Source: Corallococcus sp. NCRR
GTDB lineage: Bacteria > Myxococcota > Myxococcia > Myxococcales > Myxococcaceae
NCBI RefSeq assembly: GCF_026965535.1
Contig: NZ_CP114039.1
Location: forward strand, 8,787,461-8,851,460
DNA length: 64,000 bases
Reading direction: 5' to 3'
In this document: piece by piece, positions 56,916 to 62,541 of the stretch
Layout: every line of letters begins with the position of its first letter
Position numbering within the stretch: the stretch's first letter is position 1
Program-made: the position numbers and the translations under genes
Notes under the pieces: generated by a model
Database searches by the model: none
Told to the model about the DNA's origin: nothing
What the model saw: the letters and a program-made list of their open reading frames with translations, nothing else

Positions 56916-57422
56916 ATGTTCGTGCGAACCGCGCTCTTCCTGTCCGCCGCCCTGATGCTGGGAGGCTGCGACGTCACCACCGAGCTGGGCAAGCCGTGCC
57001 AACTGGTGCGCAGGGCCACGGACCAGGAGCGGGAGGCGCAGGGCCGCAAGTTCGTGGAGATCCAGGAGAAGGACATCGCCGTGGATCAGGACTTCATCTC
57101 CTTCGGTTCGCTGGACTGCGAGGACCTCATCTGCGTCCGTGACGACCAGAGCCCCCGCAGCGACAACCCGGAGGCGTTCGCCCTGGGCTACTGCAGCAAG
57201 GAATGCGTGCAGGGCACCACGACGGGCTGCGAGATCACCCGCACCGTGGGCGACGTGGAGGAGGGCCTCAAGGAGCGCATGACGTGCCGTCCCCTGCTCC
57301 TGGACCAGGACACGCTGGACGCCATCAAGATCGCGGACGAGGGCTTCTACCGGCGCACCTTCGGCGAGAACAACTCGCCCTACTTCTGCGCGGGCGCCGT
57401 CGCGGCGGCCCAGGGCAACTGA
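56916..57422 (+). CDS. cglC: Gliding motility lipoprotein CglC (GltK)
   Basis: 168 aa. Start ATG at 56916 with AGAGG 8 bp upstream. The leader MFVRTALFLSAALMLGGC ends in a lipobox, giving Cys18 followed by Asp19. The mature protein has several Cys likely in disulphides (GKPCQLV, DCEDLICV, GYCSKEC, TGCEIT, MTCRP, YFCAG). In M. xanthus the matching lipoprotein can be transferred between cells by TraA-mediated outer-membrane exchange and restores gliding to the mutant. Identification is by position beside cglE and by lipoprotein type; no motif proves it. Confidence 0.78.
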   Translation: MFVRTALFLSAALMLGGCDVTTELGKPCQLVRRATDQEREAQGRKFVEIQEKDIAVDQDFISFGSLDCEDLICVRDDQSPRSDNPEAFALGYCSKECVQGTTTGCEITRTVGDVEEGLKERMTCRPLLLDQDTLDAIKIADEGFYRRTFGENNSPYFCAGAVAAAQGN

Positions 57423-57444: not shown

Positions 57445-57473
57445 CGCGCGAAAGGGTTAGACCTTTTCGCGCA
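57445..57473 (+). terminator. Hairpin after cglC
   Basis: Arms GCGCGAAAGG and CCTTTTCGCGC (one bulge) around GTTAGA, starting 23 bp past the cglC stop. No T-run beyond CCTTTT inside the arm. It may end the cglC transcript. The 3' arm is also the first part of the repeated leader element before the VWA gene. Confidence 0.45.
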
Positions 57474-57524
57474 CCCCGTTCGTAAAGGCAGGGCCCGCGT
57501 TTCAAACGCCTTTGGAGCCCTGCC
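57457..57524 (+). promoter_or_regulatory. Repeated leader element, copy A: conserved motif and start-codon hairpin
   Basis: First, TTAGACCTTTTCGC, 9 bases, then CGTTCGTAAAGG (to 57488). Then a two-tier hairpin: outer arms GGCAGGGC (57487-57494) and GCCCTGCC (57517-57524), inner palindrome GCGTTTCAAACGC. The 3' outer arm ends exactly at the ATG at 57525. GGAG (57514-57517) overlaps its first base, so folding would hide the ribosome binding site. Copy B lies at 61237. Confidence 0.5.
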
Positions 57525-58949
57525 ATGAATCGTACGGTCCTGTTCCTCGCCCTGGCTGGTGGCCTTGCCCTCACCGCGCTGGTGCTGGGCATGCCCCGCG
57601 GGGGCGGTCTCCCGCCCACGCCGCACGTCGTCGTGACGCCGCCCCCGCCCGTCCCGCAGCCGGGGCCGCGCGCGTCCACGGGCAGCCTCCAGGTGACGAG
57701 CCGGCTGTCGCACCCGTACGTGCCGGTGGGCCCCTCGGAGACGTACGTGACGGTGGACCTCACCGGCGCGGAGGTGCCCGGGGCGAAGAGGAGCCCGGTG
57801 AACCTGGCGGTGGTCATCGACCGGTCCGGGTCCATGAGCGGCTACAAGCTCCAGCAGGCGAAGCAGGCCGCGCGGCACTTGGTGTCGCTGCTGCGCGACG
57901 AGGACCGGCTGGCCATCGTGCACTACGGCAGCGACGTGAAGAGCCTGCCGTCGCTGCCGGCCACCTCGGGCAACCGCGAGCGGATGCTCCAGTTCATCGA
58001 CGGCATCTGGGATGACGGCGGCACCAACATCAGCGCGGGCCTGTCCGTGGGCCGCACGCAGCTCGCTTCCGCCATGGGCGGGACGGCCTCGGTGAACCGC
58101 CTCATCCTGATGAGCGACGGCCAGCCCACCGAAGGCGTGTCCGACGAGGAGGGGCTGAAGAACGTGGTGCGGGAGATCCGCGCCTCCGGCATCACGGTGA
58201 GCTCCATTGGCGTGGGCACGGACTTCAACGAGGACCTGATGCAGGCCTTCGCGGAGTACGGCGCCGGCGCGTACGGCTTCCTCGAGGACGCGAGCAAGCT
58301 GTCCACCCTCTTCCAGCGCGACCTGCAGCAGGCCACCACCGCGGTGGCGCGCAACGTGGAGCTGTCGTTCGAATTGCCCCCGGGCACCACGCTGGGCGAG
58401 GTGCTGGGCTACCGCGCGCACCAGGCCGGCAACACCGTGCGCGTGGCGCTGCCGGACTTCTCCGCGGGCCAGGTGGAGCGCGTGGTGGCGCGGCTGCACG
58501 TGACGGGCATCGCGCCGGGCCAGTCCGTGCAGGTGGCGGGGCTGAAGGTCGCGTACACGGACCTGCTCGTGCAGAAGAACGTGGAGGACCAGTCCGTGCT
58601 GGCCGCGGTGGCCACCAACGTGCAGGAGGAAGTGGTCCAGCGCCAGGACAAGGAGGCCACGGTGTACGCGGCCCGGGCCCGCAGCGCGCAGAACCTCCAG
58701 AAGGCCGCGGAGGCGATGGCCCAGGGCAACAAGGCGGAGGCGAAGGGCTACCTCTCCCAGAACCAGGCCCTCTTCGAGGAGGCGGGCGCGGTGGCGGGCG
58801 CGGCGGCGGTGGCGGCGGATCAGGCCGAGCAGAGCCGCGCGATGCAGGAATACGACGACGCGGATTCCTATGAAGCGCAGAAGGCCGCCGTGAAGAACAG
58901 CAAGGTGAAGGCGCTCAAGAGCTTCGGGCGCATGGGCTCGACGTACTGA
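57525..58949 (+). CDS. VWA-domain exported protein
   Basis: 474 aa. An N-terminal hydrophobic helix (VLFLALAGGLALTALVLG) is a signal peptide or anchor, then a Pro-rich stretch. The von Willebrand A domain covers about 90-260 with an intact metal site: DRSGSMSG (DxSxS), GGTNISAGL (Thr), and LMSDGQPTEG (Asp). After it come a beta domain and a helical, Ala/Gln-rich coiled-coil tail. The layout is like the YfbK/BatA-type VWA proteins found near ATPases or membrane complexes. Function unknown. Its leader is shared with the gene at 61309. Confidence 0.82.
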   Translation: MNRTVLFLALAGGLALTALVLGMPRGGGLPPTPHVVVTPPPPVPQPGPRASTGSLQVTSRLSHPYVPVGPSETYVTVDLTGAEVPGAKRSPVNLAVVIDRSGSMSGYKLQQAKQAARHLVSLLRDEDRLAIVHYGSDVKSLPSLPATSGNRERMLQFIDGIWDDGGTNISAGLSVGRTQLASAMGGTASVNRLILMSDGQPTEGVSDEEGLKNVVREIRASGITVSSIGVGTDFNEDLMQAFAEYGAGAYGFLEDASKLSTLFQRDLQQATTAVARNVELSFELPPGTTLGEVLGYRAHQAGNTVRVALPDFSAGQVERVVARLHVTGIAPGQSVQVAGLKVAYTDLLVQKNVEDQSVLAAVATNVQEEVVQRQDKEATVYAARARSAQNLQKAAEAMAQGNKAEAKGYLSQNQALFEEAGAVAGAAAVAADQAEQSRAMQEYDDADSYEAQKAAVKNSKVKALKSFGRMGSTY

Positions 58950-60762: not shown

Positions 60763-61239
60763 ATGAAGACGAACGCCGCCCGGCTCCTGGACTCGCTCGG
60801 CATCGCGTACCGCTTGCGCGACTACGACGTGGATCCGGACGACCTGTCCGCGGAGACGGTGGCCGCCAAGGTGGGCATGCCCGCGGAGCAGGTCTTCAAG
60901 ACGCTGGTGGCCAAGGGCGACCGCACCGGCGTGTTGATGGCGGTGGTGCCCGGCAACGCGGAGCTGGATTTGAAGGCCCTGGCGCGGCTGTCCGGCGACC
61001 GCAAGGTGGACACCGTGCCCCTCAAGGAATTGCAGCCGCTCACCGGCTACATCCGGGGCGGCGTCACCGCGCTGGGGGGCAAGAAGGACTACCCCGTCTT
61101 CGTGGATGAGACGCTGGAGCTGTTCGACGAGGTCGCCGTGTCGGCCGGGGTGCGCGGGACGCAGCTTGTCCTCGCCCCCGCGGACTACCTGCGCGTGACG
61201 AAGGGCAAGCCGGGACCCATCTCGCGCCCGAAGGCGTAG
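60763..61239 (+). CDS. ybaK: YbaK/EbsC-family Cys-tRNA(Pro) deacylase
   Basis: 158 aa. DLSAETVAAKVGMPAEQVFKTLVAK contains the conserved Lys of the editing site (FKTLVAK), and GGVTALGGKKDYPVFVDE is the second signature. The family hydrolyses Cys wrongly charged on tRNA-Pro. Five bases after purK, so it may share the purE transcript. Its stop codon is the TAG that starts copy B of the leader element. Confidence 0.92.
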   Translation: MKTNAARLLDSLGIAYRLRDYDVDPDDLSAETVAAKVGMPAEQVFKTLVAKGDRTGVLMAVVPGNAELDLKALARLSGDRKVDTVPLKELQPLTGYIRGGVTALGGKKDYPVFVDETLELFDEVAVSAGVRGTQLVLAPADYLRVTKGKPGPISRPKA

Positions 61240-61308
61240 ACCCTTTTCGCAAGCCGCGCGTTCGAAGGGACATTCCCGGCCCTTGGGGGCCGTTCCCGGG
61301 GTGTCCCG
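61237..61308 (+). promoter_or_regulatory. Repeated leader element, copy B
   Basis: TAGACCCTTTTCGC, 9 bases, then GCGTTCGAAGGG (to 61269). A two-tier hairpin follows: outer arms GGGACA (61267-61272) and TGTCCC (61302-61307), inner stem CGGCCC / GGGCCG with a TTGG loop. The 3' outer arm ends one base before the ATG at 61309, and GGGG (61298-61301) sits directly before it. Same order and spacing as copy A at 57457. Confidence 0.5.
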
Positions 61309-62541
61309 ATGAATGCCGCCGTGTTGCAATTCCACCACCGCGAAGCCTTCGAGCACACCGTCACGCGCGCGCTGGCGGCAGGCGCCGGAGCGGGGCTTTT
61401 GCAGTGGGTCTCCCTGCGCGTGGGCATGCCGGTGCCGCTGACGTGGGTGGTGCCCGCGGCGGTGGTGCTGGCGTGCGCGCGGGGTGACCGGTGGGACCGG
61501 GGCCTGTTGAGCGGCCTGGGGTTGCTGCTCGTCGCGCTGCCCTATGGGCTGGGCCTGTCGCCCGCGTGGACCGTGGCCACGAGCGGCGCGGCCGCGGGCG
61601 CGCTGCTGGTGCGCTCCCGCCTCAACGACCTGGGCGAGGAGGGACAGGTCGCGGAGGCCCGCCCCACCCTCGTGCACTACGGCCTGGGCGCCGTGCTGGG
61701 CGCGGGGCTCACGCTGGCGGGCGGCGTGGTGGCGAACATCCTGGCGGTGCGGCTGGCGTCCGTGGCCACGCCCACGCTGCTGGCGGCGGCGGTGGTGGGC
61801 GGCATCGTGGGGCTCTTCGTGGGGCTGGGCGCCATCGCCGCGCACCTGGGGCTGACGGCGGATCCGGTGGAGGCGCGCGCGGAGGAGCTGCTGCCCCAGC
61901 TCTCCAGTGATTTCCTCACGCTGTCCGAACGCGCGCTGTCCCTCTACCGGCAGTGCGGCCAGTCCCTGGCGAAGCTGCCCCGAGAGCCCGCGCGCGAGGA
62001 GCTGGCCCGCACGCTGGCGCGGATCACGAAGGGCGCGGTGGAGCTGGCGTCCGAGTGGGCGGGCGTGGAGGCGCAGCTGGAGGAGCGCGCCGCCGCGGAG
62101 TTGCTGGAGGAGCGCGACAGCCTGGAGCGCAGCGCTCGCGCGAGCACGGACGTGGTGGCGCGCCGGCAGTTGGAGGCCGCGGCGGCGTCGCTGGCGGAGG
62201 AGGTGGAGCGGCTGGGAGACATGCGCCAGCGACGTGAGCGCATCCTCGCGAGGCTGCGCGCGGAGGTGGCCCTGCTGGAGCGTGCGCGCGTGGCGCTCCT
62301 GTCCCTGCGCAGCGGTCAGGCCCAGCTGAAGGCGGCGGAGCTGGCCTCGCTGGCCCGCCGGTTCCGTGCCCTCTCGACCGCCCAGGGAGAGGAGGGCCAG
62401 GCGATGGACGCGGTCGCGGCCCAGGTCACGCTGACCCAGGTGGCGGCGGCGAGCGTGGCCCCGGTGACCCCGGTGGATCCGTCACCAGCAGAATCCGAGG
62501 GCGCCAAGGTGGCGGAAATCCAGCGGATTCAGGGGGAATAG
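61309..62541 (+). CDS. Hypothetical membrane/coiled-coil protein
   Basis: 410 aa. Four or five hydrophobic helices fill residues 20-185 (WVVPAAVVLACA, GLLSGLGLLLVALPYGLGL, LGAVLGAGLTLAGGVVANILAV, LAAAVVGGIVGLFVGLGAIAAHLGL). A long helical Ala/Glu/Arg-rich part, 190-370, is likely a coiled coil. The end is a disordered Ala/Val/Pro segment. No family recognised. It has the same leader element as the VWA gene, which suggests common control. Confidence 0.68.
   Translation: MNAAVLQFHHREAFEHTVTRALAAGAGAGLLQWVSLRVGMPVPLTWVVPAAVVLACARGDRWDRGLLSGLGLLLVALPYGLGLSPAWTVATSGAAAGALLVRSRLNDLGEEGQVAEARPTLVHYGLGAVLGAGLTLAGGVVANILAVRLASVATPTLLAAAVVGGIVGLFVGLGAIAAHLGLTADPVEARAEELLPQLSSDFLTLSERALSLYRQCGQSLAKLPREPAREELARTLARITKGAVELASEWAGVEAQLEERAAAELLEERDSLERSARASTDVVARRQLEAAAASLAEEVERLGDMRQRRERILARLRAEVALLERARVALLSLRSGQAQLKAAELASLARRFRALSTAQGEEGQAMDAVAAQVTLTQVAAASVAPVTPVDPSPAESEGAKVAEIQRIQGE

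Follow-up and report, generated by a model that had tools for sequence, protein, structure and literature searches.

A candidate ECF sigma-factor promoter before VWA-protein and sigma-factor genes of the Myxococcaceae, accompanied in some lineages by a hairpin over the ribosome binding site

Introduction

The Myxococcaceae are predatory soil bacteria. In one of them, Corallococcus sp. NCRR, the leader of a VWA-domain gene carries a short block of letters followed by a hairpin that reaches the ribosome binding site, and a related element recurs at position 61237 of the same window (the whole stretch of 64,000 nt that was analysed). This raises the question of whether the repeated part acts as RNA in the leader or as DNA before transcription begins. 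A first-pass annotation had noted both copies and proposed a translational switch, a protein-bound operator or a mixture of the two. Its DNA half was right in kind, since the shared core is very probably a protein-recognised element, an ECF sigma-factor promoter with the -35 element TAGA(C/T)C, a spacer of 16-17 bp and the -10 element CGT (probability about 0.9, judged from sequence); a conserved RNA leader was not borne out. The hairpin is real but secondary, a second feature separate from the shared core.

Results

A TAGACC-N16/17-CGT core precedes two genes of the window

In copy A, the -35 element TAGACC (57458-57463; this and the following window features are on the + strand), kept before VWA orthologs as [TC]AGA[CTA]C, is followed by a 17-nt spacer (57464-57480) that is T-rich at its start and by the -10 element CGT (57481-57483). 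The gene downstream (gene A, 57525-58949) encodes a secreted or membrane-anchored VWA-domain protein of 474 aa (PF00092, E = 8.4e-25). In copy B, the TAG of TAGACC (61237-61242) is the stop codon of a preceding gene for a protein with a tRNA-editing domain, the spacer is 16 nt and CGT lies at 61259-61261; gene B (61309-62541) encodes a 410-aa protein with hydrophobic segments that matched no Pfam or NCBIfam family. The cores span 57458-57483 and 61237-61261, respectively, both with the form TAGACC-N16/17-CGT. The small gene 5´ of the VWA gene (56916-57422), whose product has a lipoprotein-like start and no Pfam family, is co-directional with the VWA gene in most genomes inspected.

The blocks TAGACCTTTTCGC and CGTTCGTAAAGG do lie 5´ of the VWA start codon (57525), as annotated, but only 6 nt separate them in copy A, and 8 nt in copy B, instead of the 9 nt given. 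This two-block pattern has 2 matches in the window, compared to 0.01 expected. As a unit, TAGACC...CGTTCG was rejected; the distance between its parts drifts (12, 13, 16 or 17 nt), which fits neither a promoter nor a single RNA stem, and other genera keep CGT at 16 or 17 nt but have lost CGTTCG, which had earlier been taken for a conserved block. In copy A, the CGTT of that block lies within the spacer. The conserved unit among the genera is TAGA(C/T)C plus CGT at 16 or 17 nt. The dyad CCTTTTCG/CGTAAAGG, which had been assigned to the conserved part, is absent from copy B, the copy before an ECF gene and most other genera, and was rejected as an RNA stem.

Further copies precede ECF sigma-factor genes and secreted VWA genes

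A third copy (C) was found in the same genome, 36 kb beyond the window, as well as in the other four Corallococcus genomes covered by that pattern search. It lies ~30 nt 5´ of the start codon of a gene for an ECF sigma factor of 171 aa (ECF-C). Aligned on the last CGT, the three copies read N17 and CGTAAA (A), N16 and CGTTCG (B), and N16 and CGTTTC (C). Across 464 kb around the window, these are the only full matches, with 1 further partial match compared to 2 in the reversed control. A search with the promoter form in 16 Corallococcus genomes gave ~47 matches versus 1 in the reversed control and revealed site D, present in 16 of the 16 genomes before another ECF gene. At this locus (ECF-D, G000:C1:8007814-8008458; L307, L186), the promoter is as in ECF-C and the next gene after the ECF gene encodes a zf-HC2 domain (anti-sigma-like), which occurs in many anti-sigma factors. 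No anti-sigma gene is adjacent to ECF-C in the genomes inspected.

A fifth site in the same genome, TAGAAC-N16-CGT, precedes another secreted VWA gene (G000:C1:3575340, L239). We considered a genome-wide repeat family and rejected it; the sites found in this genome number five (A, B, C, D and the VWA gene at G000:C1:3575340). We also noted the same pattern before two more secreted VWA families in Corallococcus (that of G000:C1:3575340 (L239); L228-L234, L187-L189), so that, of the targets observed, these surface proteins of von Willebrand type are the most frequent.

The core is conserved across the Myxococcaceae with a fixed spacing

We examined the regions 5´ of ECF-C, VWA and gene B orthologs from the Myxococcaceae with the strict pattern [TC]AGA[CT]C-N16/17-CGT, which was present before 90 of the 110 genes, compared to 0.4% in shuffled sequences; related sequences are counted more than once here, and related genomes are not independent observations. 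By gene, the motif precedes ECF-C in 40/47 cases, VWA in 36/49 (the 49 regions take in two paralogs, from G029 and G065, as a control, both of which lack it) and separate gene B in 14/14. The spacer is 16 nt in 76 sequences and 17 nt in 14. Most of the other non-matches carry one or two changes in the -35 element (TAGAAC, AAGATC, CAAAAC) with unchanged spacing. Among ECF-D orthologs across the family, 29 of 30 keep the motif while the spacer letters vary. The motif stands before orthologous genes across the Myxococcaceae, and distant genera retain it with different surrounding letters.

These features are those of an ECF promoter. CGT at the -10 position and a spacer of 16 ± 1 bp are standard for this class (PMC3426412; PMC8103513); here, CGT stands at a constant distance across genera, the -35 element is conserved, the spacer is fixed at 16 ± 1 bp, and the motif precedes the sigma-factor genes ECF-C (40/47) and ECF-D (29/30), as expected for autoregulation. 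One feature argues against a promoter of this kind: TAGAYC differs from the -35 that ECF promoters usually have, which contains AAC, and we found TAGAAC or AAAAC/CAAAAC only in some lineages, with TAGAYC in most. AAC at -35 is, however, a hallmark of the ECF subset studied early and not a requirement (PMC8103513). A housekeeping sigma-70 promoter with TAGACC as its -10 was rejected, as no consensus site was found; TGACA-like letters lie 17 nt 5´ of TAGACC in some genera and partly coincide with a stop codon. From the sequence, we infer recognition of the motif by ECF-C, ECF-D or both, along with the start sites and the signal. Our literature search found no published description of this Myxococcaceae ECF regulon.

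A protein other than a sigma factor might also bind here, and we asked whether the imperfect dyad around the -35 could be the operator of a dimeric DNA-binding regulator. An inverted repeat does flank the VWA -35 in several genera, but its arms differ among genera, shift position with respect to the core and do not occur in the B or ECF copies, and the shared unit is asymmetric, has ECF-type spacing and stands before sigma-factor genes, making an operator highly improbable. The repeat is specific to the VWA genes (57446-57472 of the window; orthologs L126-L155) and has a loop of ~11-13 nt; its arms vary by genus and stay complementary (GCGCGAAA/TTTCGCGC, CGTGGGGA/TCCCCACG, CGCGCGGA/TCCGCGCG). 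It may be a 3´-end structure of the upstream gene or belong to the insulation from read-through discussed below. An intrinsic terminator of the upstream gene was looked for and rejected, none being found.

Gene B has its own copy wherever it is separate from the VWA gene

In the outgroup genomes, gene B lies directly 3´ of the VWA gene at a distance of no more than some tens of nucleotides, and no promoter lies in the gap. The two genes lie apart in Corallococcus, Citreicoccus, Myxococcus and relatives, and in all 14 of the 14 examined genomes with a separate gene B, that gene has an ECF promoter motif of its own; in Corallococcus, the -35 of this motif shares letters with the stop codon of the gene before it. 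The presence of the motif wherever gene B has left the VWA gene is strong sequence evidence that the two genes belong to one regulon.

A hairpin covers the ribosome binding site in a subset of leaders

In copy A, the 8-bp stem is exact as annotated, with the 5´ arm GGCAGGGC at 57487-57494 and the 3´ arm GCCCTGCC at 57517-57524. The 3´ arm was said to be exactly the 7-nt spacer; it does contain these 7 nt up to the ATG, and also the last G of the GGAG at 57514-57517. In copy B, the 5´ arm GGGACATTCC (61267-61276) pairs with GGGGTGTCCC (61298-61307), which takes in the GGGG ribosome binding site. Stems were tested sequence by sequence against shuffles, and individual leaders from Corallococcus, Citreicoccus, Myxococcus/Pyxidicoccus, G029, the G059/G065 group, G039 and G023 carry stems beyond chance. 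They are weak in Archangium-type genomes, absent from many outgroups by the same tests and absent from the ECF copies, whose leaders were read by eye. In some lineages, the arms are altered yet still pair (ACGGGC/GCCCGT; GCGGGGTTCCT/AGGAGCCCCGC); these compensatory changes are described case by case.

Given an exact stem that exceeds shuffles in many genomes and keeps its pairing where both arms have changed, we weighed whether block and hairpin together are a cis-acting RNA that opens and closes the ribosome binding site. Yet the block occurs before ECF genes and outgroup VWA genes that have no such stem, contains no conserved stem itself and follows the spacing rule of a promoter, and a structure with compensatory changes is found in only a subset of the VWA and gene B leaders, not in all copies. 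An Rfam search gave no match at the gathering score, and a known Rfam RNA was rejected accordingly. Moreover, much of the 5´ arm lies 5´ of the predicted start. If ECF transcription begins 5-12 nt past the end of the promoter, a range taken from PMC3616915 on ECF promoters, the start of copy A would fall at ~57489-57496, within or just past the 5´ arm. A start inside or after the hairpin was what the first-pass annotation itself had named as telling against RNA, and its RNA reading is thereby put in doubt. Overall, we consider a translational RNA switch very unlikely.

The position of the arm suggests another role. The 5´ arm starts 4-6 nt past CGT in most of the VWA leaders that carry a stem of 7-8 bp, and likewise in gene B of Corallococcus. 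Since the predicted start lies inside or just after this arm, much of it is probably missing from the ECF transcript, and the full stem would be found mainly in read-through RNA. An ECF-initiated RNA without most of the arm might therefore be translated, while RNA reading through from upstream would fold and stay silent, an insulation that would add to the promoter rather than replace it. The arm position fits this possibility, as do the co-directional genes upstream of gene A and of Corallococcus gene B, the drop in predicted folding energy from -28.2 kcal/mol (start T+4) to -13.0 kcal/mol (start T+11), and a precedent in phage T4 (PMC3014915). Against it, the Shine-Dalgarno sequence is still largely paired even in the predicted short RNA, the stem is weak in Archangium-type genomes, gene B of G065 carries a stem although its upstream gene is divergent, and ECF-C genes that follow co-directional genes have no hairpin. 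The last two observations in particular lead us to regard insulation as unlikely, though a good deal less so than a switch or an operator. Slightly less probable still is its extended form, a regulon whose ECF promoters lie inside 5´-arm DNA and thereby restrict translation to sigma-initiated RNA, a chromosomal counterpart of the T4 gene e design that would have evolved repeatedly, for VWA and for gene B.

Discussion

An ECF promoter would best account for the shared core, and the regulon it would serve can be outlined. The putative targets are the VWA gene A, gene B, ECF-C, ECF-D with its zf-HC2 neighbour and, with TAGAAC, the second secreted VWA gene. Most likely, the circuit would be one of positive autoregulation, in which the sigma factor, once free, drives transcription of these envelope-related genes and of its own gene. 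The RBS hairpin would be an extra, lineage-limited feature beside the start of transcription that may reduce translation of longer read-through RNAs; the promoter by itself leaves a hairpin that exceeds chance in several genera without explanation. The promoter is well supported and of a kind familiar to specialists, and the hairpin is interesting but unproven. We also noted that ECF-C and ECF-D stand under one promoter type, possibly reflecting two ECF factors in one circuit, or a cascade.

The closest known systems are of two kinds. ECF41 factors recognise TGTCACA-N16-CGTC (PMC3426412), and the motif described here resembles ECF41-type regulons in being bipartite, with CGT at -10 and a 16 ± 1 spacer, and in preceding the sigma-factor gene itself and a few targets. 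It differs in its -35 (TAGAYC), in being common to two ECF genes of different subfamilies, in its targets (VWA proteins and a membrane protein) and in being known from sequence alone. The second kind comprises the leaders of T4 gene e, soc, 49 and I-TevI, in whose long RNAs the ribosome binding site is masked by a stem (PMC3014915). There, an alternative-sigma promoter lies in or beside the 5´-arm DNA, and the predicted geometry here fits; unlike T4, this is a bacterial chromosome with an ECF-type sigma factor, and the start site, read-through and their effect on translation are predicted ones.

The sequences would define a family-wide Myxococcaceae ECF regulon with the code TAGAYC-N16/17-CGT, two sigma genes and VWA surface proteins, placing several genes so far uncharacterised in an envelope-response system that can be tested. 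With the hairpin beside the start site, one could also test whether genes of this kind are insulated against read-through in bacteria. Among the ECF-C leaders, those of L107, L109, L112, L116 and L123, from other genera, have a short stem-loop between the promoter and the RBS, for example CCCCC-TTATG-CGGGGG or ACACCC-GATG-AGGGTGT, that leaves the RBS uncovered.
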